Assembly (NCBI GenBank): GCA_944327245.1
Contig: CALVHD010000006.1
Span: forward strand, 1 to 64,000
Length of the DNA stretch: 64,000 nt
Reading direction: 5' to 3'
From: Candidatus Gastranaerophilales bacterium
GTDB taxonomy: Bacteria; Cyanobacteriota; Vampirovibrionia; Gastranaerophilales; Gastranaerophilaceae
Below, in pieces: positions 25,112-43,541 of the stretch. Within the stretch, counting starts at the first letter, position 1. Every line of letters starts with the position of its first letter. Both the position numbers and the translations under genes were made by a program. The notes under the pieces are model-generated. The model ran no database searches, was not told where the DNA came from, and saw only the letters and a program-made list of their open reading frames with translations.

Positions 25112-25112
25112 C

Positions 25113-26225: not shown

Positions 26226-26227
26226 TA

Positions 26228-27049
26228 CTATAATGCCACAATCACCATTTTATGCTTATTTGCATAATCGACCATTTTTTCCTGATCTACAATAATTGTT
26301 TCACCGCTTTCAAGCGCTAAGACATTTGCACCGTATTTTTTCATAGTTTTAATCGTTCTTAAACCAACCGCAGGAATATCAAAACGCTTATCTTGAGCCG
26401 GTTTTGAAACTTTAACAACAATTGCATTCTTTCTCTTTGCAAGTCGTGCACCTCGTTTTATACATCTGTCCGTGCCTTCGATTGCTTCTATCGCCATAAT
26501 CATTCTATCTTTCATAACAACGGATTGACCAATATCAAGACCGCCCATTTGTTTTGCAATTTTAAACCCGTATTCTATATCGGCACTTTGTTCTTTTGTC
26601 GGCGCTAATAAAGTCAATACACCTTTTTGAATCATTAAATTTTTAATAAATATTGTTTGATCTAAAATTGTTATGCCGATATTTTCAAGCTGTTCAACAA
26701 TTTTAAGCATTATTGCATCATCATTTAATTTCTTCATTTCTTTTAATAAAGCTATAGCTGTTTTTTCAAGTCTTGGGCGTTTTACCAGCATAGTTTTTGA
26801 AACCTTACCCAAAAAAGTAAGCTGTTTTATGCCTTCATTTTTAAGAAATTTCTTAATTGAATCAACCTGCCCCGGTCCATATGAAACAACTTTTGAACAA
26901 TATTTTTTTAAATCTTTGCAGTTATCGGACGACAAAGAAATGCATATCACTTCAAAACCATTTTGTTTTGCACTTTTTGCCATATTTACCGGTAATTGAC
27001 CATCGCCTGCAATTAAACACTGTTTATGTTCAAGTATTATATTTGACAT
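26228..27049 (-). CDS. lpxI: UDP-2,3-diacylglucosamine pyrophosphatase LpxI
   Basis: LpxI (DUF1009) cleaves UDP-2,3-diacylglucosamine to lipid X, replacing LpxH in many bacteria. The 273-residue protein has the family features IAGDGQLP near the N-terminus, LGKVSK, a GTDRCIKRGA motif and the KPAQDKRFDIPAVG region with the conserved acidic residue. Its place directly upstream of lpxB strongly supports the call. Confidence 0.95.
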   Translation of the reverse strand: MSNIILEHKQCLIAGDGQLPVNMAKSAKQNGFEVICISLSSDNCKDLKKYCSKVVSYGPGQVDSIKKFLKNEGIKQLTFLGKVSKTMLVKRPRLEKTAIALLKEMKKLNDDAIMLKIVEQLENIGITILDQTIFIKNLMIQKGVLTLLAPTKEQSADIEYGFKIAKQMGGLDIGQSVVMKDRMIMAIEAIEGTDRCIKRGARLAKRKNAIVVKVSKPAQDKRFDIPAVGLRTIKTMKKYGANVLALESGETIIVDQEKMVDYANKHKMVIVAL

Positions 27050-27051
27050 TT

Positions 27052-28041
27052 TTATAAACTAAACTCCATTTTATTGTCTTTTTCATTCGCTGAATTTTGT
27101 TCTATATTTGTTTTAACATTGCCGATTGCCTCAAAGGTTCTAGGCTGCATTGTTATTGTTATCTTATCTGCCTCAACGGAATTTGTGCCCTTTTCAACAA
27201 TTTTTGATCGGCCGATAAATATAATTTTCTCGGGCTTATTAGTCTTTGAATTAATATGCATTATTGCTTTTGGTCCGTCTGCAATATAATCACCGTAATC
27301 GACATGAACAGCACCTGCTGCCATCATTGTATTACCTTTTCTGTCGTATTGTTGGCTTCTTGCCTTAATTATTACCCTATCGCCATTATCAAATGTAACA
27401 TCCGATAATGTATTTCCGCTCACAATAATATCTTGACGAAGTTTTGAATATCTGATGTCATCACCCTTGATTATACTTTTATCTTGTTTAACCACAGCTC
27501 TTGAGGACAACTTTAGATTATGAACATCACCCTTCTTATCCATCAAAGCATAAGCATTATCAGAAGTTGCAACCATATCTTCATAATTAATTACAACATT
27601 TCCTATTGCTTTCATCAAACTGGTATTTGTATCATATTCCTGCATATCTGCGCTAATAATAATCGTAGGCTTCTTATTTTCTAAAACATTTGTTTGTGCA
27701 TTTCCTTGCGCAGTTATTATTTTTTTTATTAATGAAACTTTTATGATATCTGCTTTGACTTCATGCTTTTTATTATCTTTTATCTGATAAGCATAAGGTT
27801 TATCAAAAAATGTTGCTAATGAAGGTTTTTTTGTTTGCGGTTCAAGGTCCAAATCTGCTCTTGGAGATTGAACCACAACATCCCCAACCTGAACCTTAAC
27901 ATCTCCGCTAAAATATCCTTTGTTTTTATCTACATGCATTTCCTGTTTTTTAGATTCAATCGTTATTGCAAAAACACTGCTTGCAAAAAGAAGAACAAAA
28001 AATACTATTAAAAATTTTAAATTAATCTTTTTCATATTCAA
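27052..28041 (-). CDS. LptA/OstA-like periplasmic LPS transport protein
   Basis: The protein starts with a signal peptide (about 25 residues, ending in SVFA) and consists of OstA-N type beta repeats (YFSGDVKVQ, VVINYEDMVATSDNA, AAGAVHVDYGDYIADGPKA). LptA forms the periplasmic bridge that carries LPS from the inner to the outer membrane. At 329 residues it is about twice the E. coli length, so it may hold more repeats or cover a wider periplasm. Its neighbours lptC and lpxI-lpxB support the role. Confidence 0.88.
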   Translation of the reverse strand: MNMKKINLKFLIVFFVLLFASSVFAITIESKKQEMHVDKNKGYFSGDVKVQVGDVVVQSPRADLDLEPQTKKPSLATFFDKPYAYQIKDNKKHEVKADIIKVSLIKKIITAQGNAQTNVLENKKPTIIISADMQEYDTNTSLMKAIGNVVINYEDMVATSDNAYALMDKKGDVHNLKLSSRAVVKQDKSIIKGDDIRYSKLRQDIIVSGNTLSDVTFDNGDRVIIKARSQQYDRKGNTMMAAGAVHVDYGDYIADGPKAIMHINSKTNKPEKIIFIGRSKIVEKGTNSVEADKITITMQPRTFEAIGNVKTNIEQNSANEKDNKMEFSL

Positions 28042-28056
28042 TAATCTAACATAAAA

Positions 28057-28647
28057 TCACAACTGTGTATATTTTTTCTTGGACTCATCATCGGCATATA
28101 TTTTTGTTTTTGTATTTTCCATAATCTTAAAATTGGTTAAAGTAGAATTAAAAACCGCTTTTTTTGATTTTGCAACCAATTTATCGTCATGGATAAATTG
28201 AACATTTCCGTTTGCCAAAATATCCTTATCTTCCCCTTGCCATATTAATTCATCAGCATATAACTGCGAACCGTCTTTTCCAACAAAAAGATTATCTCCG
28301 TTTAAAACAACTTTTTTTGTTTTTTCATCATAAGTACCCTTATTGGACCTAAAGCTTACAACGACATTTCCGTCTTTATCGTAAAAATTACCTATAACAT
28401 CATTCAACAGCACACTATTATATTCGGAATTATATTCACCTGATTTAGCATAAAATTCCCAATATTTTTTCTGATCTTGAGTTTCGGTTACAATTATATT
28501 TTTGACTATAGCATGCTGATTTTTCATCGACTCATCGCCGGAGTTTTTCCTGACAGTTCTTGTTATAAACCAAGACCAAACTACTCCCCATCCGATTAGT
28601 AAAATCATAGCAAGCACAAAAAACTTAACTATTTTTTTTCTTTTCAT
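28057..28647 (-). CDS. lptC: LptC-like LPS export protein
   Basis: LptC is a single-pass inner-membrane protein that passes LPS from LptBFG to LptA. Residues 8-28 form the membrane anchor, followed by a beta-rich LptC domain (VSFRSNKGTYDEKTKKVVL and ILANGNVQFIHDDKLVAKSKKAVF). The length of 196 residues is normal. It is probably the first gene of the operon. There is no ribosome site and TATTAT ends 6 bases before the ATG. Confidence 0.88.
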   Translation of the reverse strand: MKRKKIVKFFVLAMILLIGWGVVWSWFITRTVRKNSGDESMKNQHAIVKNIIVTETQDQKKYWEFYAKSGEYNSEYNSVLLNDVIGNFYDKDGNVVVSFRSNKGTYDEKTKKVVLNGDNLFVGKDGSQLYADELIWQGEDKDILANGNVQFIHDDKLVAKSKKAVFNSTLTNFKIMENTKTKIYADDESKKKYTQL

Positions 28648-28717: not shown

Positions 28718-29149
28718 TTAATCTTGTTTAAAATCTTGTTCTTGTTCTATTTGAACCTCACGAGGCGAATTGAGGTGTGTATAAAGGCTTCCAAGAGTAA
28801 TTTTGCTGATTTCATCATCGCTTTCACCGTTTGAATCTGAACCAAACATAACCATTAATTTATTCAATTCGTCTTCGTCGATAATATCAGCAGAATCTCC
28901 TTCTGAATCAATATTTAAGACTTCCCAGCATGCATTTGCAATATCTTCATCAAGACCGATTTCGCTGATTCTTTGCAAAAAATCATCCTTTGTTGCGCCC
29001 GCTTGAAGCCCTTCATCACCAAAAATTGATTCGCTTCTTTTGCTTTCTTTTCCAAAATGAACCGCATCATTTTGACCCATAGCCTCTTTTAGTTCTGCTA
29101 CAGAATTAAAACTACCCACTCCGCTTATATTTGAAATGTTGTCACTCAT
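28718..29149 (-). CDS. Hypothetical acidic protein with an EF-hand-like segment
   Basis: The start is set at ATG 29149 (MSDNISNISGVG) because GAAGG lies eight bases upstream; an ATG at 29164 is in frame. The 143-residue product is very acidic and has no signal peptide. A helix-loop-helix around residues 78-106 contains an Asp/Glu-rich loop (NIDSEGDSADIIDEDEL) that resembles a calcium-binding EF-hand with a slightly long loop. Function unknown. It lies 70 bases upstream of lptC and could be co-transcribed or separate. Confidence 0.65.
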   Translation of the reverse strand: MSDNISNISGVGSFNSVAELKEAMGQNDAVHFGKESKRSESIFGDEGLQAGATKDDFLQRISEIGLDEDIANACWEVLNIDSEGDSADIIDEDELNKLMVMFGSDSNGESDDEISKITLGSLYTHLNSPREVQIEQEQDFKQD

Positions 29150-29245
29150 ACCATATACCTTCATTCATATCTACAGTATGGAATACGACATAAAACATCA
29201 AAAACTTAAAATTTAAAATAAATAAATTTACATAAATTAACAAAA

Positions 29246-30055
29246 TTAACCGACAGATTTAACCAAAATTTTAGCTAACGTATTTGAACACGAAATAAAT
29301 TCATCTTTACTCATTCTTTTAATATTCAACGGGGTCCAAGAATTATGCAGCAAAATTAAACCATTGCTATTTTTAAAAACAAAATCCGAAAAATCATTTT
29401 CAAAATAAAATTCCAAATATCTTTTCAACTGATTTTCCTGCCTAGATTGAACTAATAATTCAGGCATGCAAAAATTTTCATCACGTTTTATTGGTAAAAA
29501 ATCATTGGTATTGTTTACTTTATCAATAATAGGATTTAAAATATCATTTCCTAAATACGCCCAAGAGCTTAGTTTTTTATAAAGACTACTTTTGAAAAAT
29601 CTCAAAAAAAACTTTGAAAATTTACCATATTTAAACGCCTTTTTATGAAAATATACGCGTTTTTTTATTCTTTTAAACCACATATCCAAGATTTTTGATT
29701 CTTTCTTGGCTTTAATAAAGCATATATGCGGAAAAATAATAGAAAAATCTGCTTCAAGGTTAAAAAATTTGTTTGCTTCAAAAGAAGTTAATATCGTATC
29801 TGTATCCATCCAAATACCGCCAAATTTTTTCAAAACAGCACACCTGATTGCATCAGATTGAATAGTCAGCGAAAAATTCTTGAAAAAATAATCATCAAAA
29901 AAATCTTTATCCAGATAATCAAAAAGGTTTGAATAATTTAAAACAACAATTTGATAATTCGGAAGATATTTTTTCCAAGTTTCAAAGCATAATTCTAAAT
30001 ATTGCGGAACGCTGTTTTTTGGCTCCCAAAATGTATAAATTTTATTTTTTTGCAT
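29246..30055 (-). CDS. GT32-like sugar transferase (DxD glycosyltransferase)
   Basis: The GGIWMDTDTIL motif (D84-x-D86), the QSDAIRCAVLKKFGG segment and a C-terminal HNSW motif are typical of the Gly_transf_sug / capsular polysaccharide synthesis family (GT32-like). These enzymes transfer a sugar from a nucleotide sugar using a metal bound by DxD. There is no membrane segment. It is the last gene of the nine-gene operon and overlaps the GT2 gene upstream by 14 bases. Confidence 0.85.
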   Translation of the reverse strand: MQKNKIYTFWEPKNSVPQYLELCFETWKKYLPNYQIVVLNYSNLFDYLDKDFFDDYFFKNFSLTIQSDAIRCAVLKKFGGIWMDTDTILTSFEANKFFNLEADFSIIFPHICFIKAKKESKILDMWFKRIKKRVYFHKKAFKYGKFSKFFLRFFKSSLYKKLSSWAYLGNDILNPIIDKVNNTNDFLPIKRDENFCMPELLVQSRQENQLKRYLEFYFENDFSDFVFKNSNGLILLHNSWTPLNIKRMSKDEFISCSNTLAKILVKSVG

Positions 30056-30728
30056 TTTTACCTTTTATATTTTTTTTTGACAATTTTATCCGCAAAAGCT
30101 TTGCATAATCCTTAAATTCTTTTGTTCTGTTTGTTTTGCTGTAATTGTTATCATGAATTCTGCGATTACTTGAAATAAAATTAATTTTTTTGGTTTTAAT
30201 ATTTTGTTTGTTTAACTTATCTGTCAGAGATATAATTTCGCCTGCAGTTATATTTTCATCAAAAAATCCAATTTTATTAAAAACCTCTCTTTTAAATAGC
30301 ATTGCCCCTGCCAAACAACCATAATAAGACTCTTTTTTAATTGATTGATTTTGATTTTTAATATCGGGAGAAATAAAATCTTTAATTTTTGCAATCACAA
30401 CTTCAATTGTATCGTCCTTTTCAAATTCATTAATCATTGTTTTTAGAGCATTTGAAGTTAAAACATCATCATGGTCACAAAAAATTATATAATCGCCGCA
30501 AGCCGCTTTAAGCCCCGTATTTTTAGCTGCAACTTGTCCTATTGAAACTGAATGGACAACCACATTACAACCGAAACTTTTTGCAATCATTTTTGTATTA
30601 TCAATCGAACCATCATCAACAACAATAATTTCAGTATTCATTTTTTGATTAATTATACTCAAAATAGCTTCTTTAATGTAATTTTCTCCATTTTTAACAG
30701 GCATTACTACAGAGATTTTATTATCCAT
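30042..30728 (-). CDS. GT2 family glycosyltransferase
   Basis: A short GT-A glycosyltransferase of 228 residues. It shows VVDDGSIDNT at 37-46 and the metal-binding DHDD at 85-88. The C-terminus is Lys/Asn-rich with no membrane segment. Donor and acceptor are unknown. The gene overlaps both neighbours by a few bases (8 with the aldo/keto reductase upstream, 14 with the GT32-like gene downstream). Confidence 0.88.
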   Translation of the reverse strand: MDNKISVVMPVKNGENYIKEAILSIINQKMNTEIIVVDDGSIDNTKMIAKSFGCNVVVHSVSIGQVAAKNTGLKAACGDYIIFCDHDDVLTSNALKTMINEFEKDDTIEVVIAKIKDFISPDIKNQNQSIKKESYYGCLAGAMLFKREVFNKIGFFDENITAGEIISLTDKLNKQNIKTKKINFISSNRRIHDNNYSKTNRTKEFKDYAKLLRIKLSKKNIKGKNAKK

Positions 30729-31776
30729 TTTCGCTCCATATTGCTTGGTTATAGTATTTTATCTTTGCCTTGCAAATTGGAATATTAAATAAATAATATA
30801 CAACTTCATTGGCATTTTTTCTGATTATTTTAAAAAAAGGAATTACCCCAAAAAGTTTAAAGTTCTTACTATAAGTTCTGTTAATATAATTTTCCAATAT
30901 TGAAAAATATCTTGATTTTGATAAATCACCAACCAAAACAGCCTCATCAAGACGAATACCGTTATAACAAGGTTTAATGCTGTTTAATTTTTTCATATCT
31001 TCATCAGACAATTCAAAATTCCAAATTTGATAATTTGAATTAATTCTATCTATATTACAAGATTTAACAACAAGCGCATTTCCACTTTGAATATTCCACC
31101 TCAACGCAATCTGAGCAGGTGTTTTAGAATATTTTAAAGCTAACGATTTAACAGTCTTGTCTTCAAGGACTTTGCCCTTGTTTAAGGGCGACCACGCCAT
31201 GATTTTTATATTTCTTTCAAGACAAGGCTCAACTGCTTCTTTATTTTTATATTGAGGATGTAATTCAACCTGATGAACCATAGGAAGTATTTTACCTGAA
31301 TTAAAAACAACATCAAAATATGGCCATCTAAAATTAGAAATTCCAATTGCTCTTGTTTTTTTATTATTATAAAGTTCTTCCATTGCACGCCAAGAATATG
31401 CTATATCTTTTCTCCATGAAGGCCATTCACAAAAAGGATGATGCAGTAAAAATAAATCAATGTAATCAAGTCCCAGTTTTTTTAAACTTTGTTCAAAACT
31501 ATTCAACGTTTCTTCATACCCCGGAAAAAACCAATGGGATTTAGTAATTATAAACAATTCTTCTCTTTTTACAATTCCATCATCAATACATTTTTTAATT
31601 GCACGTCCAATATCATTTTCATTTTTATAAATTGCAGCAGTATCAATAGCTCTATACCCTGCCTTAATGGCACTAATAACGGCTTCATATGCCATATCGC
31701 CGCTAAGATAATCAGTACCAAAACCCAAAATAGGCATTTTAACACCGTTGTATAATTTTACAAATTTATCAAACAT
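30721..31776 (-). CDS. Aldo/keto reductase with a glycan-cluster-type C-terminal tail
   Basis: Residues 1-285 are an aldo/keto reductase with the full catalytic tetrad D45, Y50, K79 and H112. It would reduce a sugar or other carbonyl with NAD(P)H. The last 65 residues are not part of the fold; they contain a hydrophobic LFGVIPFFKII...LFNIPICKAK pattern like the tails seen on glycosyltransferases of surface polysaccharide loci. The tail suggests membrane or complex association with the neighbouring glycosyltransferases. This last point is inference. Confidence 0.85.
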   Translation of the reverse strand: MFDKFVKLYNGVKMPILGFGTDYLSGDMAYEAVISAIKAGYRAIDTAAIYKNENDIGRAIKKCIDDGIVKREELFIITKSHWFFPGYEETLNSFEQSLKKLGLDYIDLFLLHHPFCEWPSWRKDIAYSWRAMEELYNNKKTRAIGISNFRWPYFDVVFNSGKILPMVHQVELHPQYKNKEAVEPCLERNIKIMAWSPLNKGKVLEDKTVKSLALKYSKTPAQIALRWNIQSGNALVVKSCNIDRINSNYQIWNFELSDEDMKKLNSIKPCYNGIRLDEAVLVGDLSKSRYFSILENYINRTYSKNFKLFGVIPFFKIIRKNANEVVYYLFNIPICKAKIKYYNQAIWSENG

Positions 31777-31780
31777 AATT

Positions 31781-33490
31781 TTACTTTGTCCTCATTTTTT
31801 TAATTATCATACATTGATAAAGTTTGTTCAATTTTTTAATCCAAACTTCGCAATTTTTTTCTATTTTATATTTTTTTATTATATCAATTTGTTTGATTAA
31901 TCGAGAGTAAATTATTTTTTTGTCATCAGGCAAAATTATATTATTTTCTATAAAATCAACCGTAAAATCGACGTATTTGAAAAAATCTTGAAGCTTTTTT
32001 TCGTCATAAAAAGAATTCAGCTCTTCTTTTTTCTTATTATAAAAATAGCAACCATCATTGCAAATTTTGATATCATTACAATAAAACACTGCTTTAAAAA
32101 TAAAAATAATATCTTCACAAATACTCAAATCTTCGGGAAAAAATATTTCATTTTTCAATAAAAAATCTTTTCTGTAAATTGCAGTTGTAAACTGAGCCCA
32201 AAAATTGTATTTATTTTCTAAAATTAATTCATTTTGCATCCATATATCGGTATTTAAATCATCATACATAACTCTAAGATCGGCACCTTTTAATATGTCC
32301 TTTTTGTCTTGATTGTACAATTTTTCAAAAAAATCTAAATCAACAAAATCATCTGAATCAACAAAACCGATATATTCCCCTTTAGCTTCTTTTATTGCAG
32401 TATTTCTTGAAAATGCAGCTCCTTTGTTTTTTTTAAAATTAATTATTTTAATTCTTTTATCAAAAGAAGAATACTCATTTAAAATTTCAGAAGAATTATC
32501 AACTGAACCATCGTTTACACAAATAATTTCAATATCGGATAATGTTTGGTTAATTAAAGAATCTAAACATCTTCTCAGTGCAAACTCGGCATTATATATC
32601 GGTACAACAACAGAAACTTTTGGATTATTTACAATTATTTTAGATTTATTTTCATATAATTTTAAAACCTGAAGCTGATGTTTAGTTTTATATTTGCAAT
32701 CAATTTTATCTTTTAAACCGACTTTTTTAGCATAATACCAAAATAAATTATAATCTCGATATTCATTAATACAAAGATTTTGAGCTAAATGCCAAGGTTT
32801 TATCGGGTTATAATAATGACGAACGATTTCACAATCATGAGGTATCATAGAATTAAAACAAACAGGCAATTTCATATAATTATTTTCAAAAAATTTATTA
32901 AAAACATCTTGGTCATTACAAGGCAAATTTCCACGATATTTTTTTTCAATTTCAAATAATTTTTCAGTGATATTTTCCTTGCGCCATTTTTCTAAATTAA
33001 TTAACAAAACGCCGCAATTAAAATAATCAGAAAAAATATCCATATTTAAATTTTTCTTTAATTTTGAAATATAGAGCTTATTTCCCTGATCAACAACAGC
33101 ACCTATAATAAAATCTTTTAAATCTATATTAAAGAGCCTTGAAATATCACCTTTTAAAATAATATCTATGTCTAAATAAATAGCTTTATCAATATTTAAA
33201 AATAAATCCGCGATAATAAACCTAAAATAAGTTGCTTTAGTAATGTAACTTTCAACAACAAAATCGCCAAAAAATTTATCATAATCTATTTTTACAAATT
33301 CACAAGAAAAATTATTAAATATTTTCTTTAATTTTAATATCTCTTCTTTATTTTGCTTTTCTATTCCGCCATCTAAAATATAAAATTCACAGAAATTATC
33401 AGTATTATCACAAATGCTGGCAATTAAAACAGGAATATAAAAAGCATAATTGTTATCTGAAGATAAAAATATCGGAATTCTATTTTTCAT
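31781..33490 (-). CDS. Two-domain glycosyltransferase, GT8 fused to GT2
   Basis: Residues 1-270 are a GT8 domain: SSDNNYAFYIPVLIASI at the start, DID at 107-109 for metal, and a late RHYYNPIKPWH motif. From about residue 289 a GT2 domain follows (PKVSVVVPIYNAE, VNDGSVDNS, VDSDD). Each half resembles one of the two separate genes just upstream (GT8 at 33480-34385, GT2 at 34378-35361). A 231-base stretch of the GT2 part is nearly identical to the upstream GT2 gene. The protein probably adds two sugars in sequence. Confidence 0.88.
   Translation of the reverse strand: MKNRIPIFLSSDNNYAFYIPVLIASICDNTDNFCEFYILDGGIEKQNKEEILKLKKIFNNFSCEFVKIDYDKFFGDFVVESYITKATYFRFIIADLFLNIDKAIYLDIDIILKGDISRLFNIDLKDFIIGAVVDQGNKLYISKLKKNLNMDIFSDYFNCGVLLINLEKWRKENITEKLFEIEKKYRGNLPCNDQDVFNKFFENNYMKLPVCFNSMIPHDCEIVRHYYNPIKPWHLAQNLCINEYRDYNLFWYYAKKVGLKDKIDCKYKTKHQLQVLKLYENKSKIIVNNPKVSVVVPIYNAEFALRRCLDSLINQTLSDIEIICVNDGSVDNSSEILNEYSSFDKRIKIINFKKNKGAAFSRNTAIKEAKGEYIGFVDSDDFVDLDFFEKLYNQDKKDILKGADLRVMYDDLNTDIWMQNELILENKYNFWAQFTTAIYRKDFLLKNEIFFPEDLSICEDIIFIFKAVFYCNDIKICNDGCYFYNKKKEELNSFYDEKKLQDFFKYVDFTVDFIENNIILPDDKKIIYSRLIKQIDIIKKYKIEKNCEVWIKKLNKLYQCMIIKKMRTK
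32319..32549 (-). repeat. 231-base direct repeat, copy A
   Basis: Matches copy B (35054-35284) with three mismatches by eye. It encodes the core of the GT2 fold from the VNDGS region to just after the VDSDD motif. Flanks on both sides diverge sharply. Confidence 0.9.
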
Positions 33491-34385
33491 ATACTATATT
33501 ATCCATTTTATTTACCATAGCATTAAATCTTTTATAAATAAATTTTTGAGAAAGAAATTCTTCTCGTTTATTTAATAAATCAAAGTAATATGGTGTCATT
33601 TTTGCATATTTCCAAAACAATTCACGATTATATATCGGCTTTGGAAATCGGTTATCTAAGTAAAAATCCGCAAGCCATGGTTTTGGATATTCGCTAAAAT
33701 GTCTGATAACTTGAGAATTTGATTTTTCATAACAAGATAAATAACAATATTTTTTGTCAAGGAGTTTATAATTATTTTGGAAACATATATTAAGTACATC
33801 TTGATCGGGATGTTTTAAATCTAAATTTTGATTTTTTAAAATATCCGATAATTTTTCTAAAATTTTTTCTTGACGCCATTTTTTACAATCAATTAATAAA
33901 TTTCCTGAAGAAAAATATTTATGATTTTTATTAAGATTTAATCTTTTTTTTCTTTCAATATTTAAACTATTCTCACCAAACTCTTCCCATACCGCCCCAA
34001 GAGAATGTCCGTTCAAATCTTCATTATACATTTTTGAAATATCACCCATAGCTATAATATCAGGGTCAGTATAAATTGCTTTGTTGACTTTTGTTTTTAT
34101 ATCAGGAAATAAAAATCTTGAATACATAATTAAAGATGGAAAAGTTTTTGTTATTTTCAGATTTTTAAAATAATCATTCAAATTAACTTTTACAAATTCA
34201 ATTGAAAAATTTTTAAATCTTTCGCTTAATTTAGTAATTTTATCTATATTAAGTTGATTTATATCATTATTTAGAACATAAAAATCACAAAATTTATCTG
34301 TATTAGAACATATTGAAGCTATTGCAATCGCAACCTGTGGAGCATATTCATTATCTGAAGCAAAAAATATTGAAATATTATCCAC
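33480..34385 (-). CDS. GT8 family glycosyltransferase
   Basis: 301 residues with the GT8 pattern: FFASDNEYAPQVAIAIASI at the start, DPD at 107-109 in place of the usual DxD, and a C-terminal VIRHFSEYPKPW. It resembles the N-terminal half of the fused protein downstream, and overlaps both neighbours by 8-11 bases. Likely a galactosyl- or glucosyl-transferase of a surface or secreted glycan; the sugar is not known. Confidence 0.88.
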   Translation of the reverse strand: MDNISIFFASDNEYAPQVAIAIASICSNTDKFCDFYVLNNDINQLNIDKITKLSERFKNFSIEFVKVNLNDYFKNLKITKTFPSLIMYSRFLFPDIKTKVNKAIYTDPDIIAMGDISKMYNEDLNGHSLGAVWEEFGENSLNIERKKRLNLNKNHKYFSSGNLLIDCKKWRQEKILEKLSDILKNQNLDLKHPDQDVLNICFQNNYKLLDKKYCYLSCYEKSNSQVIRHFSEYPKPWLADFYLDNRFPKPIYNRELFWKYAKMTPYYFDLLNKREEFLSQKFIYKRFNAMVNKMDNIVYEK

Positions 34386-35361
34386 AACAAACCTCTTTAT
34401 TTTTAATATTTTTAATCAGTTCAATTTGAGAAGACTTTTGGACTATTTTTGAAAAATTATCTTTTAATGATAAAAAATCTTCGCTATAAATATAATCAAA
34501 AATAGTCTTAACAAAATAATTCATATCAGAAAGCTTATATTTTTTTAATATAAACTTTAGCGCACAAATATTTTTTTCATCAAAGATATTATTTTTAACC
34601 ATTAAAAAAACAATATCTTTTAAAAATTCGTTGTAAATTAAATTATAATCATTTGAATTAAAAGTATAGTTTGAAATAAAATCAACAATATAATTTGCCG
34701 ATTTTAAAACACTATCCATTTTTTCACTATTAAATTCAGAAAATGTTATAGAGTTTGTTCTTCTTTTGTAATAATAATTTGCATTATCAACTAATTCAAT
34801 AAAATCAGCATAATAAGCAACCTTTAAAGGAAATAATCTGTCTTCTCCCCAAATACAATCATCCAGAAAAGAAATATTATTTTTAACAATAAATTCCTTT
34901 TTATAAATTGCAGATGTAAAACAAGAGTTGAAATAATACTTATTTATTTTGATTTTGGAATTTAATTTCAACGGTATTTTATTATTGTTTAAATCAATAT
35001 CAACAATATCGCCTTTAGCACAAACCGCATTTGACTTTATTGCGCTAAAATATAATTTTTCAAAAAAATCTAAATCAATAAAATCATCTGAATCAACAAA
35101 ACCGATATATTCCCCTTTGGCTTCTTTTATTGCAGTATTTCTTGAAAATGCAGCTCCTTTGTTTTTTTTAAAATTAATTATTTTAATTCTTTTATCAAAA
35201 GAAGAATACTCATTTAAAATTTCAAAAGAATTATCAACTGAACCATCGTTTACACAAATAATTTCAATATCGGATAATGTTTGGCTACAAATGCTATCTA
35301 GACATCTTTTAATATCATTTTCAGTATTATATATAGGAGTAACAACAGATACTTTTGGCAT
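34378..35361 (-). CDS. GT2 family glycosyltransferase
   Basis: 327 residues. The N-terminal GT-A domain has VVTPIYNTEND, VNDGSVDNS and VDSDD; a helical C-terminal part follows. The middle of the GT2 domain is nearly identical in DNA to the fused GT8-GT2 gene, pointing to recent copying. It starts 2 bases after the PqqD-like gene ends, so the glycosyltransferases and the PqqD module share one transcript. Confidence 0.88.
   Translation of the reverse strand: MPKVSVVTPIYNTENDIKRCLDSICSQTLSDIEIICVNDGSVDNSFEILNEYSSFDKRIKIINFKKNKGAAFSRNTAIKEAKGEYIGFVDSDDFIDLDFFEKLYFSAIKSNAVCAKGDIVDIDLNNNKIPLKLNSKIKINKYYFNSCFTSAIYKKEFIVKNNISFLDDCIWGEDRLFPLKVAYYADFIELVDNANYYYKRRTNSITFSEFNSEKMDSVLKSANYIVDFISNYTFNSNDYNLIYNEFLKDIVFLMVKNNIFDEKNICALKFILKKYKLSDMNYFVKTIFDYIYSEDFLSLKDNFSKIVQKSSQIELIKNIKNKEVCCG
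35054..35284 (-). repeat. 231-base direct repeat, copy B
   Basis: Matches copy A (32319-32549) at an offset of 2735 bases with three mismatches by eye, far closer than the rest of the two genes. Suggests gene conversion or a recent duplication. Confidence 0.9.
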
Positions 35362-35363
35362 TG

Positions 35364-35834
35364 TTATTGTTCCATTTTCTTTTCTCGTTCACGAGTTTCT
35401 TCTTTAGTATAGCCTATGGAATTCTTTTCGGGAGTCCAGCCGGTATCTTCTTTAACTTCATGAATAGGATCAGCAAGCAATAATTCCTGAGCATCGTCAT
35501 AAGCTTTAACATCAAGTTCGAATTTTGCTTCAATAGCCACATTTATATCCAGCTTAACTTCACTTTTATTTTCAACATCATTAATAATCAGTTCAAAATC
35601 AAGCATTGACTTAATGAAATTATTCAATCTGTTTTCAATATCTAAAGGGCATTGAGGGATATTTTTCAAATAATTTAAAATATCCTCCAAAGCTGCGCCA
35701 TTTACGAGATTTTCATAAACAGATGTAGCAAACTCATTTAATCCATAATATATACCCGTTTCAGAATTGATTATAATTGCAGTACCATCTGTAATATCAA
35801 CAAACATTTTTTCTTCATTTAATTTATAATTCAT
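35364..35834 (-). CDS. PqqD-like (RRE-type) protein with C-terminal extension
   Basis: Residues 1-90 follow the PqqD pattern: a strand with FVDITDGTAIIINSETGIYYGLNEFATSVYENL, then helices ending in FIKSMLDFELI. PqqD folds bind leader peptides of ribosomal peptide natural products. The last 65 residues are an extension, acidic then charged, with LLLADPIHEVKEDTGW near the middle. The extension could be a linker, a second binding part or a fused substrate. No PQQ genes are near. It is placed between the HprK-PqqD fusion and GT2. Confidence 0.82.
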   Translation of the reverse strand: MNYKLNEEKMFVDITDGTAIIINSETGIYYGLNEFATSVYENLVNGAALEDILNYLKNIPQCPLDIENRLNNFIKSMLDFELIINDVENKSEVKLDINVAIEAKFELDVKAYDDAQELLLADPIHEVKEDTGWTPEKNSIGYTKEETREREKKMEQ

Positions 35835-35835
35835 C

Positions 35836-37335
35836 TCATTTTTTCCTTATCAATTCATTATCTTTTTCATTTAAATGTTCAATTAAAGATAATTTAAAAT
35901 TATCTTCTTTTATAAACTCGATATTAATTTTTGGCATTTTTGACGACATCGGAACATCCGTTAAAATTCTTTTTTTTAATAAAACATCAACAAAAAGATT
36001 TACGTCATTTTCTATATTATCAGGCATGCCTGAAATATTTTTCAACTTTAAAATTATTTTATCAATCGAAATGCCATTAAGCATATTTTCATAAAGGTTT
36101 GTTGCAAATTTATTCATAGAATAAATAATTCCTGTTTTAGAATTTAAAATATTTGCAATATTAAATGTAATATCAACGCAAATCTCGTCAAGACCTATTA
36201 TTGGCATAGCACTATAATCAATATTATTCATAAAATTAAAAAGAAATTCGGTATTTTTTTCAATATCAGAGCAAAGATTAAATTTAAAAAACGGAAGATT
36301 TTTGAACATGTTAATCATTTTTTTAACTGTATAACTTTCAGACAAATCTCCGACTTGAGATAAAGTTGATTGAATTATTTGGACTAAGGCTCGATTTTTT
36401 TCAACTTGCGAACAAGGACATATCATTGGTGTATCACCAACAACAATTTCAGGAAAAATACAAAATTTAATCGGATAATTTATTTTGAACTTATCATGAT
36501 AATTCGAAATATTAAAAACATATTTGTCTTTTCTGGCATTATTTGAAACATATTGAAACGTATTAAAAAATTTATATAATTTATTGTACATATATGCCGA
36601 AAGAGTGATTATAGAATAGATTGGACTTGCCAGAAGTTCATTATTGCTGTTTTGATAAATTATAAAATAATCATCAGCAACATACTCAAAACCTTTTACC
36701 AGAGAAAAAACAGATAAAGTTGATTTTCCTCTTTGACCTCGGGCACAAATACAAGCACCGTTATTATTTAAACCAATAACTGCACCATGAGCTAAATTTG
36801 AAGTTTTGGTTTTTAAAATATTATTAAAAAACTGAATAAATAAATGTCCTTCTTTTATTAACTCCTCGGCATCAAGATTTTGAACACCATAATAATAATT
36901 ATGATTTTTATAATCATTAGCAATAAAAATGCCTTTTTTTATATTTATATCAATAATTGGTTTAATATATGAAAAGTCGTTATCCAGTAATTGAATATTA
37001 TTTAAAACTTTTTCTTTAAAATAAAGAGTTTCTAATCTAAGTCTTATATTTTTTTTAGGATTAAAATCATCGCAAATACAATTTGCTAAATTCTGAAAAT
37101 CGTTTTCTTTCCATAATATAAGAGTATCATCGTAATTTGTTGAATAATCTTTTAAACAAAAGTTTAACTGATTTTCAATATGAAACAAAAAACTATCATT
37201 CAAGCCGATTAATCGAACAATTTTAAAACCTAAATCGAGATATTTAACCCATAGTTTAGGAAATTTTGACAAATAATCATCAAGATTTTTAAAACATGCT
37301 ATAATTTTTTCTTTTGTAAAATTCTTAAATTGCAC
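35836..37335 (-). CDS. HPr-kinase-like protein fused to a PqqD-like domain
   Basis: The centre (about 180-330) looks like an HPr kinase/phosphorylase core: a conserved LAHGAVI strand, the P-loop GQRGKST at 200-206 and VADD at 219-222. The C-terminal part (385-460) repeats the PqqD pattern (DITFNIANILNSKTGIIYSMNKFATNLYENML). HPr-kinase homologues in lasso peptide clusters phosphorylate the peptide. The N-terminal 170 residues resemble the extra domain seen on such kinases. Start codon is GTG with an AGGTG site. It directly follows the nucleotidyltransferase gene. Confidence 0.85.
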   Translation of the reverse strand: MQFKNFTKEKIIACFKNLDDYLSKFPKLWVKYLDLGFKIVRLIGLNDSFLFHIENQLNFCLKDYSTNYDDTLILWKENDFQNLANCICDDFNPKKNIRLRLETLYFKEKVLNNIQLLDNDFSYIKPIIDINIKKGIFIANDYKNHNYYYGVQNLDAEELIKEGHLFIQFFNNILKTKTSNLAHGAVIGLNNNGACICARGQRGKSTLSVFSLVKGFEYVADDYFIIYQNSNNELLASPIYSIITLSAYMYNKLYKFFNTFQYVSNNARKDKYVFNISNYHDKFKINYPIKFCIFPEIVVGDTPMICPCSQVEKNRALVQIIQSTLSQVGDLSESYTVKKMINMFKNLPFFKFNLCSDIEKNTEFLFNFMNNIDYSAMPIIGLDEICVDITFNIANILNSKTGIIYSMNKFATNLYENMLNGISIDKIILKLKNISGMPDNIENDVNLFVDVLLKKRILTDVPMSSKMPKINIEFIKEDNFKLSLIEHLNEKDNELIRKK

Positions 37336-37343
37336 ACAAACAC

Positions 37344-38546
37344 CTAACTTTTACATCTGTATATCTTTGTTTTTAAATCTTTGATTAATAAATCAATTAA
37401 AAAAGGGCTGTTTTTGATTGATTTTAAAAGATAATACTTGGGTTTTATTTTAAAATAGTTAATAAAATTATTAAAACTTAAAAACATCTTTTTAATTGGC
37501 AGTTCTTTACATTTAATTCTTAAATCTTCAAGATAAAACCTATTATAAAGAACTATTGTAGAATATTTTTTTGTTTCGTTTTCAAAAAGTTTTTTTTCTG
37601 TAATTTCATTAGGCAAAATGTCAGATGAAATTTTTTCGATGAATTTAGCCGCAAAATTAATTTGCACTTGCGTTTTTGTTATTTTTGCAGAATTTTTAAC
37701 TATATTCCAATCAAAATCTCTTTTTTGCTCAATCAAAAACTTAGAATCAAACAAAGTAAAGAGCAAACCTGCCTGGCTTGTTCTATTTCTCAGATTTTTT
37801 GATAAATTTATTAAAGATATAAATAACATATCTTCATAAGATGGAATTAAACACTTAACGCCAAACGCCTTAGCTTCAGTAGAACGATAAAAAAGTTCAG
37901 GAAGGTATTTTTTTTCAAAAGAAGAATCCATATCAAAATATTTATGAATATCAACTGCACCATCGTTTGAATTTTCAGGATGGAGGTCAATAGAATGGTT
38001 TGCAATTTTTTCCCACCAATAACCCATAAATTTAGTCAATTTTTCACACTTTAAAAAATCATCTTCTGAAACTAAAATATCGCAATCATTCATCACTCTA
38101 GGCAATTGAGGACGAATATATTTCATAGCTACTCCTTTTATTAGCATGGGAGTGATATTATTTTGATTTAAAATTCTGCCAATTTTACTAAAGTGAGCAA
38201 TAACTTTCAAGTTATAAAAACGATAATAATTTAATAAACCCTTTAAGCGCGGCTCAATAGAAGAGCTGAATTTTAAATGAGGATGATTTTTAAGCATGTA
38301 TGAAAGCAATAAAGATTTTTCACTTCCTTTAACATCAATATCCCACTTCGTCATAAGATTATCTAGTCTGTCTTGAGTCGGATTAATACTAAAACAAAAC
38401 CTTAAGAGCTCTTTTTCGTCATTTTTCAATATTTCATTATAAAAATTTTCAATCAAAACATCAGTTACGGAAAATTTATCTTTAAAATAACTGCTATTTT
38501 TAATATCATTTATTTCATTGTTGCTTAATAATTGCAAAAAGCTCAA
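37344..38546 (-). CDS. PF14907-type nucleotidyltransferase family protein
   Basis: The 400-residue protein has the pattern of the uncharacterised nucleotidyltransferase family PF14907: LIKGVAMKY (137-143), a PRVMNDCDILV strand with D154-x-D156, and later HP and VDIHKYF elements (H189, D199, H201). In lasso peptide clusters a member works after the HPr-like kinase and is linked to sugar addition. The start is uncertain: the TTG at 38546 lies only two bases from GGGGG, and a second TTG nine bases on is better spaced. It is the first gene of the operon. Confidence 0.8.
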   Translation of the reverse strand: MSFLQLLSNNEINDIKNSSYFKDKFSVTDVLIENFYNEILKNDEKELLRFCFSINPTQDRLDNLMTKWDIDVKGSEKSLLLSYMLKNHPHLKFSSSIEPRLKGLLNYYRFYNLKVIAHFSKIGRILNQNNITPMLIKGVAMKYIRPQLPRVMNDCDILVSEDDFLKCEKLTKFMGYWWEKIANHSIDLHPENSNDGAVDIHKYFDMDSSFEKKYLPELFYRSTEAKAFGVKCLIPSYEDMLFISLINLSKNLRNRTSQAGLLFTLFDSKFLIEQKRDFDWNIVKNSAKITKTQVQINFAAKFIEKISSDILPNEITEKKLFENETKKYSTIVLYNRFYLEDLRIKCKELPIKKMFLSFNNFINYFKIKPKYYLLKSIKNSPFLIDLLIKDLKTKIYRCKS

Positions 38547-38707
38547 ATCCCCCTTTAATGAAGTTTATTGCTTAAATTCTTTAAATAAATATAAGACAAT
38601 TTAAAAAAGTAGTCAAATAAAGAAATACATTAGATAAGATTATCATAGCAAAATTTTTTATTTAGTTGTTTTTAAGAAAATGCCCATTAAAATCAAAGGA
38701 AAAAACC

Positions 38708-39667
38708 ATGCAAATATCACCAATTAATAATTTCAATGTACAAAATTTAAATTTCAAAGGAACACAAACAAAAAAACCTGAAATATCAAACCCTGTCATC
38801 AAGCAGGATAAAACCATGGAAGCGCTTAACATTCAAGGCAAAACAAATATGCAACAAGTAAAGAGATTAAGCCCAAAAGCTGAAATCGAACAAGCGATAA
38901 AAGAAGCTGACGATTTAGCAAAAAAAGTTCAAGATGAAGCAAAAAATATTGAATTTATGACTGATGAAGCAATATATAAAATGTTTAAAAAACATCAAGA
39001 ATTGGGCTATTACACAAAAAGCTGCGAAGAACTTTCACCAAACGGAGAAGTCTTAAGAAAAATAACAATGAATGATAACGGTACAACGCTTCTTGAAGAA
39101 TTTAACCCAAAAGAAGGTACATCAGATATTACATTTTTTGAAAACGGTAAGCCGTATTTTCGTCTTGAAGGATATGCGAAAAATGCTGAGGATGAAATAA
39201 AATTTTCAAAATATTGTCTTTTTGAAAACGGTGAAATTACGTTATATCAACAAGGATACGAAAAAAAAGCAGACGGATCAATGAAATGTGATATTAGCAT
39301 TGAATATAAAGACGGTGAAGCAGTGTACTGTCAACAAGGCACTCAAGAACTTCCTGACGGCACGGAAAAATGCGATAAAATACTTGTTTTAGGGGAAAAT
39401 AATTCATATTGGTATCAGGAAAATTTCAACAAATCCGCAAAAGGCACAATAAGAATAGGTGAAAACATATCAATTGAAAATGGTCAAATTAATTGGTATG
39501 AAAAAAATTCACAAGAAAGTGAAGACTCAAAATCATACAAAGTTGAAAAAGGTATTGATTATATAGATGGAAAACCAATAAGAATAGAAATAAACACTTC
39601 AAAAAACAGAAGATCTAATAGAATATATTCAGCATGCGAAAACGGCTGGAAAAGGACATCCAAATAA
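38708..39667 (+). CDS. Hypothetical repeat protein with NFKG N-terminus
   Basis: The frame is open from 38666, but ATG 38708 has an AAAGGA site and starts MQISPINNFNVQNLNFKG, so it is chosen (319 residues). A helical charged stretch (about 55-90) precedes four or more repeats of about 40-45 residues that alternate strands with the pattern xENGxxxxYxQGYxxxxDGxxKxD. These resemble MORN-like or WG-like beta repeats. No signal peptide or catalytic motif. A binding role is the best guess. Confidence 0.75.
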   Translation: MQISPINNFNVQNLNFKGTQTKKPEISNPVIKQDKTMEALNIQGKTNMQQVKRLSPKAEIEQAIKEADDLAKKVQDEAKNIEFMTDEAIYKMFKKHQELGYYTKSCEELSPNGEVLRKITMNDNGTTLLEEFNPKEGTSDITFFENGKPYFRLEGYAKNAEDEIKFSKYCLFENGEITLYQQGYEKKADGSMKCDISIEYKDGEAVYCQQGTQELPDGTEKCDKILVLGENNSYWYQENFNKSAKGTIRIGENISIENGQINWYEKNSQESEDSKSYKVEKGIDYIDGKPIRIEINTSKNRRSNRIYSACENGWKRTSK

Positions 39668-39822: not shown

Positions 39823-42327
39823 ATGAGAATTGCCGGCGCAAAAGCTTGCAGAGGTTTTTCCGTTGCAGAGCTTATTATTTCTATTCTTGTTATTTCAATT
39901 ATTTTGGCAGCATTCACGCCTTTAATCACACAAAAAGCAAGAAATTCATTGACCGTCAGAACAAACGTCACAAAAGGCTTAGAAATTTACACAAACCCCG
40001 GAACATATGCCTTTGATGTACCTTTAGGGATTAATACTCTATTTATCCAAGGCGCGGGCGGAGGCGGCGGTGGAGCCGGCGCAACATCTGCAGAAAAAGA
40101 AGTGTCAATAACAACAAGTACTAACTGGATAGTTCCATCAGGAGTCAGTCAAGTCACGTTTACAATTCAGGGCGCAGGTGGCGGCGGTGGTGGCGCAAAT
40201 GGAAACAGTACAGGAAATACTCACTGCCCATATCCATCTGAAGAATTTCTTGCCATAAGAGGCACAGAAGATGAAAGTGACCTATGCTACATGAGAAGTT
40301 TTAAAACAATTGATGGATCCGATGCATGTGTAGTAAACACAACAACACTATATCCTGGAGATGCATGTACATCTAGTTATTGCGCTTGGGTATACAGAAA
40401 CCCAACAAATGGAGTAGTAGCGTACTGGGGACAAGACTATCAAACATCTAATGGCGGATTAAAAAGTACGGGTTACAGCATATTTACAAGAAAAGCAGCC
40501 AGCATGGCATGCACGGTACATAAAGCAACACCATGTGACTATAATGCATATATTCAAGGAACTATGGTAAATAAAAACAGATACAGACTTCCAAGTATTG
40601 ATGAATTAAATAAAGTAAAAAAATACAGAGAAGAATGGTCATTTAGTCAAGGAGCAGCAGGCTTAAATTTATGTACAAGGGACTTTCCAAACTACAATAA
40701 CAATGCAGATAAAAGAGTTGCTTATTGCACCGATGCAGGTAATTGCTTAGGTATAGACCTTAATGGCTGCACACCATTTCAAGTTTTAGGCTCCGATAAT
40801 AGTAGATTTTACTTTAACAGCTTTAGCGACATTATTGTAGACGATACTGTAACAAATGTATCAGGCGTAGTTAAATGTGTTACCCCTTTAAAATACTACA
40901 ACGGATATTCTGCCGCAGGTGGCGCATCAGGTGCTATATTAGAAAAAACAATTAATGTATTACCTAAAGATGTATTAGAAATCACAATAGGTAACGGAGG
41001 TAACGGCGGAGCTGCAAAAACAAAAGGTTCTCAAGGTGAAACTACAACAATTGTCCATAAAAGAAATAATATAGAACTTGGAACATATTATGTTAAAGGA
41101 GGATTAGGGGGTAATGCTGCAACAACAACAGCATACGGCACTGCCTATAAAAATGGAACAGCAAACAACGAAACAACTCCAACGGGAACATGTTACGCCA
41201 GAAACAGAAATACAACAACTGGCACATTTAATGGCGGTAATATAAATTGCAGCAAAATATCAAAAAGCGGTGAAAGCGGGACATCAACACAAGGCGGTAA
41301 TGGCGGAACTGTTGATAATACAATCACAATCGAAAAAGGAGATGCTAGCTCAGGAGGTTATTTATATATTGACAGCGCTAGAACTGCTTTTCAAAGAGCA
41401 ACAGATAAAGAAATTAGTTTAGCAAAAGGACAAAATGCAACAGAATATGGTTTTGGAGGTGGAGGAGGGTATACTCCTGCTTGGGCAAATTCAACAAATA
41501 ATTTTTATCAAGGAGGAAAAGGAGCTCAAGGTAAAGTTACAATTAAATATAACATAGGATTTCCCGGTGGTGGCGGGGGTTCAGGCTCAAGAATAGGAGG
41601 CGTAAACGATGATAATAATATGTATGAAATAAAATATAAAGTAGATGAAGGTTCAAGAATTGTATTTATAGTTGGTACAGGAGGTGCTGGCGGCGATGCA
41701 CGCAAAGACGGAACAAACGGCACAGCTACAATTATTGGCAATAACGATATAATTTTTTTAGCAGGTGAAGGCGGAAAAACAGCCACAGAAACAGATATAA
41801 CAGCTTCTCAGGGAGGAAAAGGAGGAAATGCTGGATACATCGACCAAAATGGTAATACCGAGATTGTATTATCTGGTATAAAAACAAAAACACCCACTTC
41901 AATAGAATACACATATACACCAACAGATGGAAGTTTCAAAGGTCAAAACGGAAAAAGAGGCGGAGTTCCGGCAACATCAGACATACAAGATGGATATAGC
42001 ATATTAGGTACTATATTTGAATACGGTTTTTCAGGCGGTATTGGAGGAAGCCCCTTTGGCGTTGCAGAAAATAAACTCAATAGCGCAATCACATGTGGAG
42101 GCGGAACATTAGGAACATTAGGTGAGACAACAAATATCAATTATTTATGTACATCCGGAAGCGGTTCAGGAAATACAGCAAAAAGCCACGACCCTGTAAA
42201 TAACGAATATGGCGGCTCCGGCGGTGGCGGCGGGGGTATAATAGAAAATTCATCACAGCTAGGCAAAGGTGGAAATGGCTCAAGCGGATATTTGAGAGTC
42301 AGATGGGATGTAACCCAGCAACACTAA
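39823..42327 (+). CDS. Giant pilin-like protein with glycine-rich and Cys-rich domains
   Basis: The N-terminus carries a type IV prepilin / pseudopilin signal: a short basic leader, then G|FSVAELIISILVISIILAAF with the conserved Glu five residues after the cleavage site, and a hydrophobic helix. The 834-residue length is far above normal pilins (about 150-200). Two short GAGGGGGGA stretches flank a strand; a Cys-rich domain with an RLPSIDEL motif (about 150-365) is related to the domain in the gene at the left edge. The rest is glycine-rich repeats. Probably a surface fibre tip or adhesin. GGAG precedes the ATG. Confidence 0.85.
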   Translation: MRIAGAKACRGFSVAELIISILVISIILAAFTPLITQKARNSLTVRTNVTKGLEIYTNPGTYAFDVPLGINTLFIQGAGGGGGGAGATSAEKEVSITTSTNWIVPSGVSQVTFTIQGAGGGGGGANGNSTGNTHCPYPSEEFLAIRGTEDESDLCYMRSFKTIDGSDACVVNTTTLYPGDACTSSYCAWVYRNPTNGVVAYWGQDYQTSNGGLKSTGYSIFTRKAASMACTVHKATPCDYNAYIQGTMVNKNRYRLPSIDELNKVKKYREEWSFSQGAAGLNLCTRDFPNYNNNADKRVAYCTDAGNCLGIDLNGCTPFQVLGSDNSRFYFNSFSDIIVDDTVTNVSGVVKCVTPLKYYNGYSAAGGASGAILEKTINVLPKDVLEITIGNGGNGGAAKTKGSQGETTTIVHKRNNIELGTYYVKGGLGGNAATTTAYGTAYKNGTANNETTPTGTCYARNRNTTTGTFNGGNINCSKISKSGESGTSTQGGNGGTVDNTITIEKGDASSGGYLYIDSARTAFQRATDKEISLAKGQNATEYGFGGGGGYTPAWANSTNNFYQGGKGAQGKVTIKYNIGFPGGGGGSGSRIGGVNDDNNMYEIKYKVDEGSRIVFIVGTGGAGGDARKDGTNGTATIIGNNDIIFLAGEGGKTATETDITASQGGKGGNAGYIDQNGNTEIVLSGIKTKTPTSIEYTYTPTDGSFKGQNGKRGGVPATSDIQDGYSILGTIFEYGFSGGIGGSPFGVAENKLNSAITCGGGTLGTLGETTNINYLCTSGSGSGNTAKSHDPVNNEYGGSGGGGGGIIENSSQLGKGGNGSSGYLRVRWDVTQQH

Positions 42328-42348: not shown

Positions 42349-42374
42349 AAGGCGTATTTAAATACGCCTTTTTT
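42349..42374 (+). terminator. Terminator of the pilin-like gene
   Basis: AAGGCGTA / TACGCCTT perfect stem with a TTTAAA loop and a T run, 22 bases after the stop. It reaches the stop codon of the convergent glf gene. Confidence 0.85.
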
Positions 42375-43491: not shown

Positions 43492-43541
43492 AATAAATCC
43501 TTTTTATTGCAGGCATAAGTTAATTTTATTATAATTTAAAA

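Follow-up and report, generated by a model that had tools for sequence, protein, structure and literature searches.

The operon at positions 29246-38546 on the minus strand of the window, the 64,000-nucleotide stretch of Gastranaerophilales DNA analysed here, contains a widely spread core of four genes, encoding a nucleotidyltransferase (NT), an HPr-kinase-like protein (HK), a PqqD-like protein (PQ) and a short GT2 glycosyltransferase (GT2b), whereas its other glycosyltransferases are variable cargo that differs from genome to genome. Our tentative reading, held with rather less than even confidence, is that the operon is a surface-glycan locus in which this core would phosphorylate an acceptor and load it with the first sugar of a strain-variable glycan.

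The nine tightly spaced ORFs have the strand and boundaries that an earlier note on this DNA had given them, and their spacing of -14 to +8 bases (from the first gene onward +8, +1, +2, -8, -11, +4, -8 and -14) argues for one operon. The gene families named in that note were recovered by Pfam search, HK scoring below the cut-off and being backed by its model; the conserved tail of PQ and the core membership of the GT2 gene at 30042-30728 are points that it did not contain.

37344..38546, minus strand: NT, PF14907-type nucleotidyltransferase, first gene of the operon (Pfam 71.2 bits)
35836..37335, minus strand: HK, predicted HPr-kinase/PEPCK-fold kinase with a C-terminal PqqD-like domain (model, conserved residues)
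35364..35834, minus strand: PQ, PqqD/RRE-like putative adaptor of 156 aa with a conserved tail (TbiB1 match)
35430..35501, minus strand: PQ tail motif, residues 112-135, YDDAQELLLADPIHEVKEDTGWTP, the most conserved 24-residue window of PQ
34378..35361, minus strand: GT2 glycosyltransferase, variable cargo (PF00535 123 bits)
33480..34385, minus strand: GT8 glycosyltransferase, variable cargo (PF01501 142 bits)
31781..33490, minus strand: GT8-GT2 fusion glycosyltransferase, variable cargo (PF01501 157 bits and PF00535 126 bits)
30721..31776, minus strand: DkgA-like aldo/keto reductase, recurrent accessory (PF00248 160 bits; C-terminal motif)
30042..30728, minus strand: GT2b, fourth gene of the core, from a short GT2 subfamily (invariant columns and co-occurrence with PQ)
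29246..30055, minus strand: GT32-like/Caps_synth glycosyltransferase, variable cargo (PF05704 49 bits, PF04488 44 bits)

Co-occurrence and glycan neighbourhood of the core

Among 241 genomes of the order, 26 with PQ and 215 without it, strong matches to NT were found in 27 and to HK, PQ and GT2b in 26 each, 25 genomes being common to all four. GT2b is strongly matched in 25 of the 26 PQ-positive genomes and in one of the 215 PQ-negative ones, and the co-occurrence of the four genes gives Fisher p values of about 1e-35 to 1e-31, which, the genomes being related, are descriptive rather than strict. Elusimicrobia (96 genomes) have a strong GT2b match in five of five PQ-positive genomes and in one PQ-negative genome. 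The GT2b subfamily is marked by 23 invariant columns, among them RRxHxxN...E...Y...LR. The earlier note had singled out the trio of NT, HK and PQ and proposed looking for a conserved order; of 49 testable loci, 47 keep NT-HK-PQ in sequence, and the record titles span about nine phyla. Relatives bearing the tail are also present in free-living cyanobacteria. One cyanobacterial locus spans less than 10 kb and holds NT, HK and PQ together with a GT2b-like gene and an exporter pair (Wzm-like/ABC) that lies between NT and HK. Plasmids and phages gave no match to PQ.

The linkage of the trio to glycosyltransferases extends across genomes, glycan genes lying regularly beside it. Glycosyltransferases predominate downstream of PQ, 159 of them falling into one GT2/GT8 similarity cluster, and are accompanied by radical SAM, DUF4422, aldo/keto reductase, Caps_synth and FkbM families and epimerases. 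The pair lptC-lptA adjoins the locus in the window and in three congeners (G111, G171, G202), and in another genome (G178) the locus lies near lpxB/lpxI; this lpt/lpx linkage is confined mostly to one genus. The aldo/keto reductase of the operon has a C-terminal extension formed by the tandem LFGVIPFFKI / LFNIPICKA; an LFGxIPxxKI tag common to the cargo enzymes was considered and discarded, the motif being confined to about half of the aldo/keto reductases.

Since the cargo glycosyltransferases differ between genomes, the trio might be regarded as a passenger in a glycosyltransferase-rich island, with no joint role with the sugar genes. This is highly improbable, because GT2b follows PQ almost perfectly, even on a separate contig; in one genome (G109) the core genes are divided among contigs, yet all are retained.

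The core proteins and the conserved tail of PQ

NT scores 71.2 bits against PF14907 (gathering cut-off 31.2), and among 45 relatives K137-G138, D154xD156 and D199xH201 are almost invariant, so that the catalytic G...DxD of this nucleotidyltransferase family (G138, D154, D156) is retained. Its translation probably starts at the TTG of codon 4, near 38537, rather than at the 38546 end, because homologues start there and the spacing from GGGGG fits. In HK, the Pfam scores are weak (HprK_C 17.3 bits against a cut-off of 33.3, and PqqD 22.7, just below 23.4), and the assignment is upheld by the predicted model (pLDDT 92), which matches PEPCK with Z up to 15.9 over 309 residues and HPr kinase with Z of 13-14. 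H183, G203-K204, T206 and D221-D222 are invariant in 51 relatives. By predicted fold, Walker A and DD motif, HK thus falls within the HPr kinase/PEPCK superfamily and appears to retain its catalytic residues. The kinase part spans approximately residues 1-378 and is followed by the PqqD-like domain, which shares 42% identity with PQ over about 98 residues, the tail of PQ lying outside the match.

PQ just exceeds the Pfam PqqD cut-off (23.5 bits against 23.4). Modelling of its fold, proposed in the earlier note, placed it closest to lasso B1 proteins: TbiB1 is the best match among solved structures by profile (E 2.5e-6) and by Foldseek (TMt 0.81), which puts PQ with B1-type RREs by sequence and by fold. 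PQ is accordingly modelled as a lasso-B1-type recognition domain with a C-terminal tail. The tail, of consensus D..ELL.LDPIHEV...GW, is predicted from a modest alignment to be disordered (pLDDT about 50 from residue 121 onward) though it is the most conserved stretch of the protein, with a mean of 3.58 bits for residues 112-135 against 2.49 for the RRE domain in 65 sequences, cyanobacteria included. No description of this motif was found in open-licence papers. Within it Y112 is sometimes Phe, the residue following GW is T, S, A, Q, K or P, and no Ser, Thr or Tyr is invariant in the alignment. Lacking an invariant Ser or Thr, the tail does not stand out as a target of the kinase; with all hydroxyl residues variable, that candidate role is weakened. 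A canonical RRE leader ([Y/W/L]xxP) was rejected, because the residue three places before the proline varies among L, A, M and T.

Tail-bearing PQ occurs in a single copy per genome nearly everywhere searched, two cyanobacteria carrying two, and a search of 386 genomes from the phylum found no tail on a protein lacking a PqqD-like domain; one odd match, a 150-aa frame in G402, proved to be another tail-bearing PqqD-like protein, whose neighbours are NT, HK and a GT2b-like gene. In locus L133 PQ, its tail and HK are fused into a single chain, which argues for joint action of PQ and HK. In locus L107, which has neither HK nor NT, the tail has lost its GW.

These features bear on the proposal that PQ is itself the acceptor or carrier, its tail being a fused RiPP-like substrate modified by HK, NT and GT2b that would prime a glycan as glycogenin does. 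The conservation, predicted disorder and near-constant single copy of the tail, its constant association with a PqqD-like protein in the 386 genomes and the lost GW in L107, where HK and NT are absent from the locus, are all favourable. We nevertheless regard the proposal as unlikely, as the tail has no invariant hydroxyl residue, the motif is internal to a longer chain in L133, and the disorder is predicted, from an alignment of modest size.

The acceptor

In the mechanism that we tentatively favour, HK would phosphorylate the acceptor, and NT would extend the new phosphate with either a sugar or a nucleotide, much as PsmN is reported to attach hexoses to the phosphorylated pseudomycoidin peptide (reviewed in PMC8498205). 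GT2b would then attach an early, constant sugar, and strain-variable glycosyltransferases, reductases, methyltransferases and radical SAM enzymes would extend and decorate the glycan. PQ would serve as an adaptor: its lasso-B1-type domain would bind either a partner chain or the acceptor itself, and the tail, nearly invariant and predicted to be disordered, would dock onto a core enzyme; the acceptor would be ribosomal. We infer the order of phosphorylation and sugar transfer as well as the steps themselves. Deletion of the NTP transferase from a cluster for Linear Polyphosphorylated Peptides (LPP), which caused no detectable change in the test host, weighs against this mechanism (PMC13381572).

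The earlier note had seen no lasso cyclase or leader peptidase, and this extends genome-wide: the source genome, 97% complete, has no match to the leader peptidase B2 (Transglut_core3, PF13471), and Asn_synthase (PF00733), absent from the cluster, has a sole, partial and unlinked match on contig C28, the window lying on C6. In about 60-68 related loci no conserved small precursor ORF (intergenic, 22-110 aa) was found, the search returning only antisense shadows, repeats and an unrelated HTH protein, and six frames of the window and the loci gave no match to the LPP leader motif YxxPxVLxHQxIxFETxxS, strict or loosened. Without a B2 peptidase, a linked cyclase match or a conserved precursor-like ORF, a lasso peptide product is rejected; of the proposed lasso-tailoring-like trio there remains a real unit, with PQ closest to lasso B1. 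As the loci hold neither a small ORF nor the LPP motif, a peptide acceptor would need to be encoded elsewhere. The phosphorylated and glycosylated peptide suggested earlier is thus not supported, whereas the suggestion that a glycan is primed in RiPP-like fashion survives.

A secreted lasso- or LPP-type peptide with its precursor elsewhere in the genome would explain why three families are shared with paeninodin and LPP clusters, which likewise occur in capsule loci (PMC13381572). It is nonetheless a distinctly doubtful reading, given the results above, the lack of an MsbA-like exporter in the nine genes (elsewhere, ABC_membrane accounts for two of 99 genes downstream of PQ) and scores far under the lasso and HprK_rel NCBIfam cut-offs (PQ 19.4 bits against 100 for ScmD, HK 11.6 against 200 for HPr-rel-A).

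A possible reading, to which we give a minor share of our confidence, is that the core acts on a glycan or lipid-linked intermediate, HK being a sugar kinase comparable to those of LPS core phosphorylation, NT attaching either a nucleotide or a phospho-sugar, and PQ and HK using their PqqD-like domains for protein-protein contacts alone, with peptide binding lost. The regular setting among glycan genes, the adjacency to lpt and closeness to lpxB/lpxI, the ABC-2 polysaccharide exporter alongside in the cyanobacterium and the lack of a precursor gene in the loci all point this way, as does the model of HK, whose entire PEPCK-like fold with its N-terminal domain could fit a small-molecule substrate and thus counts against a peptide acceptor. 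Conversely, the PQ domain is nearest to leader-bound lasso B1 proteins, the lpt/lpx linkage is mainly that of a single genus, and those described relatives of the trio whose substrates are known work on peptides (PMC8498205, PMC13381572).

Returning to the phosphorylated-acceptor mechanism, a four-gene set that travels together suggests that modified-peptide machinery has been redeployed for cell-surface sugars. The broader proposition, that a widespread class of surface glycans starts on a ribosomal acceptor with a RiPP-type phospho-sugar primer, extension by a dedicated GT2 and variable glycosyltransferases and a tail used for docking or as carrier, seems somewhat unlikely. Lasso and LPP peptides already provide examples of kinase, nucleotidyltransferase and RRE sets, and their frequent capsule-locus setting is unexplained. 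Here a set of this kind, joined by GT2b as a constant fourth gene and with no peptide gene found in the loci, occurs among glycan genes in gut, rumen and termite bacteria as well as free-living cyanobacteria. It raises the question of what the recognition domain targets and whether a ribosomal product primes a glycan. For pull-downs, the invariant tail of PQ offers a short handle, and the cyanobacterial relatives open the system to genetics, unlike the uncultured Gastranaerophilales.

Comparison with known systems

The HPr-rel-A and SCM cassettes (NCBIfam TIGR04352, TIGR04248), which pair an HprK-like kinase with a PqqD-like partner, differ from the present operon in that HK and PQ lie far below the curated cut-offs; TIGR04353 gave no match to PQ at E up to 1.

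The stand-alone B1 RRE is a feature shared with lasso systems, the PQ domain being nearest to TbiB1 and TfuB1. Paeninodin and pseudomycoidin tailoring (ThcoK-type kinase, PsmN) likewise joins an HPr-kinase homologue to a nucleotidyltransferase, yielding a phosphorylated, hexosylated peptide (PMC8498205), whereas the operon described here has many glycosyltransferases and no cyclase, B2 peptidase or precursor. Rumen Butyrivibrio has lasso clusters with a nucleotidyltransferase, an HPr kinase and a GT2, which equals the content of the trio with GT2, but the essential lasso genes are present there (PMC7533575).

Along with paeninodin-type tailoring, the closest likeness is to LPP (Nat Commun 2026), in which an HprK kinase, an NTP transferase and a discrete RRE occur in glycosyltransferase-rich capsule loci, often with no lasso cyclase (PMC13381572). 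Counterparts of all three proteins are present here. LPP clusters also have a separate precursor, along with a SipW-like signal peptidase and an exporter of the MsbA type; the nine genes include none of the three (for SipW, the tally in other loci covered the 25 commonest families). LPP clusters are described chiefly from Bacillota, in contrast to the Gastranaerophilales operon (PMC13381572). The invariant tail of PQ and its GT2b partner, which the accessible part of the LPP description does not mention, are the features that set the present operon apart.

Layout of the operon and its neighbourhood

The nine ORFs lie on the minus strand exactly where the earlier note had placed them, with spacing or overlaps between ORFs of at most 14 bases. 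In Pfam, the nucleotidyltransferase NT belongs to PF14907 (71.2 bits), the kinase-like HK combines a weak HprK_C match with PqqD, and PQ matches PqqD at 23.5 bits, barely above the cut-off; the six genes after PQ are, in order, GT2, GT8, GT8-GT2, aldo/keto reductase (AKR), a short GT2 (GT2b, 30042-30728) and Caps_synth/Gly_transf_sug. Because many NT homologues start at the fourth codon of the called ORF, the true NT start is probably near 38537. The AKR (30721-31776, minus strand) carries a C-terminal tandem, LFGVIPFFKI / LFNIPICKA, and in related loci roughly one AKR in two has a similar tag. The genes flanking the operon are:

23109-28647, minus strand: lptC, lptA-like, lpxI, lpxB, pgsA-like, trmL-like and nnrD-like genes, 3' of the operon and co-directional
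28718-29164, minus strand: 148-aa acidic EF-hand-like protein at the operon end
38666-39667, plus strand: protein without assigned family, N-terminal PINNFNVQNLNFKG, divergent from the operon
39823-42327, plus strand: 834-aa protein whose N-terminus (GFSVAELIISILVISIILAAFTPL) resembles that of a prepilin, with glycine-rich repeats (PF21722)
42373-44471, minus strand: UDP-galactopyranose mutase (glf) adjoining another GT8 gene

The EF-hand-like protein has relatives close to PQ in no genome other than the nearest (L075/L031).

A four-gene core across phyla

NT, HK, PQ and GT2b form a four-gene core. Within the order Gastranaerophilales, 26 of 241 genomes carry both HK and the PQ tail (residues 112-135) and no other carries either, apart from one further HK match that is a fragment with stops; strong NT is found in these 26 plus one more. 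GT2b, whose 23 invariant columns include RRxHxxN, has strong matches in 26 of the 241 genomes, 25 of them with PQ, and is at times located on a different contig. Five of 96 Elusimicrobia genomes encode full-length PQ, all five with strong GT2b, which also occurs in one PQ-less genome. Fisher values for co-occurrence are about 1e-31 or smaller, for related and hence non-independent genomes and with profiles derived from the same loci. In three loci (L079, L081, L088) the NT-HK-PQ set faces a second, divergent NT and GT2b pair in head-to-head orientation.

A species-genome scan returned 67 loci, mostly in metagenome bins from gut, rumen and termite, labelled Gastranaerophilales, Alphaproteobacteria, Rickettsiaceae, Desulfovibrio, Spirochaetes, Planctomycetota, Verrucomicrobia, Bacteroidales, Elusimicrobia and others. 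Single loci may reflect bin contamination, but several contigs are longer than 100 kb, NT and HK in those loci are divergent, and the PQ tree departs in part from the genome labels. NT-HK-PQ order is retained in 47 of the 49 loci with sufficient upstream sequence. Presumed free-living cyanobacteria, of the same phylum, encode a distantly related PQ in which this tail is retained, in most cases near HK, NT and GT2b-like genes; in one such genome a single chain comprises PQ, its tail, a further PqqD-like stretch and HK, and a second locus has NT, PQ, HK and GT2b-like as separate genes.

The kinase and the PQ tail

The AlphaFold2 model of HK (pLDDT 92) aligns with PEP carboxykinases (Z 15.9, rmsd 5.0, ~309 residues) and HPr kinases (Z ~14, rmsd 2.8, ~137 residues). 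H183, G203, K204, T206, D221 and D222 are unchanged across 51 relatives, and their counterparts in an HMM alignment are the His, P-loop and DD motifs of Coxiella HPr kinase. At its C-terminus HK has a PqqD-like domain that shares 42% identity with PQ across ~98 residues and ends short of the PQ tail; this domain is an add-on, since relatives in most other phyla (345-418 aa) lack it.

PQ residues 1-85, the PqqD-like recognition domain, are nearest to lasso B1 recognition elements (TbiB1, profile E 2.5e-6, fold TMt 0.81). Conservation peaks in the tail, with mean information of 3.58 bits versus 2.49 for that domain (65 sequences, cyanobacteria included), and in every lineage its weight is borne essentially wholly by D114, L119, D122, P123, H125, G132 and W133. 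Modelled pLDDT is near 50 from about residue 121 on, and the tail therefore looks more like a linear motif than part of a domain. At L107:9995-10411 a PQ lacking the GW of its tail, perhaps a decaying copy, accompanies GT2b and a radical SAM gene, with no HK or NT in the locus.

Glycan context and the acceptor

GT2/GT8 account for most genes 3' of PQ, one similarity cluster holding 159; others include radical SAM, DUF4422, aldo/keto reductase, Caps_synth, FkbM, epimerases and pyruvyl transferase. In one cyanobacterial locus a polysaccharide-type ABC exporter stands between NT and HK. The pair lptC-lptA adjoins the locus in the window and in three other genomes (G111, G171, G202), followed deeper in by lpxI-lpxB wherever coverage reaches that far; in G178 lpxB-lpxI lies close to the locus. 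The glycosyltransferase-rich cargo, the exporter and the lpt/lpx neighbours point to a surface glycan. Radical SAM genes of ~320 aa with CxxxCxxC recur 3' of PQ as variable cargo beside glycosyltransferases (e.g., L067:14199-15170, L065:16232-17215).

In known pairs the kinase phosphorylates and the nucleotidyltransferase puts hexoses onto the phosphate (PMC8498205), and Linear Polyphosphorylated Peptides (LPP) provide a further precedent (PMC13381572). Based on these, HK would phosphorylate an acceptor, NT load the first sugar, GT2b attach an early sugar that stays constant, and the variable enzymes complete the glycan, with PQ serving as adaptor. In the PQ tail neither a Ser nor a Thr is invariant; PQ itself seems an improbable acceptor. 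Neither a conserved small ORF nor an LPP leader motif was found in the loci. The reading tentatively preferred is that the acceptor is a ribosomal product encoded elsewhere; that the glycan or lipid intermediate itself is the acceptor is a possible reading, only somewhat less favoured.

The gene families of the core are already known; as far as the literature searched extends, what is new is that the PQ tail is invariant, that GT2b is a fixed partner, that the set is spread broadly across phyla and that it has no linked precursor. The earlier note had likened the trio to lasso tailoring; Transglut_core3 has no match in the genome, and the one Asn_synthase match is unlinked to the operon. LPP (PMC13381572) show that a comparable trio can exist without lasso enzymes.
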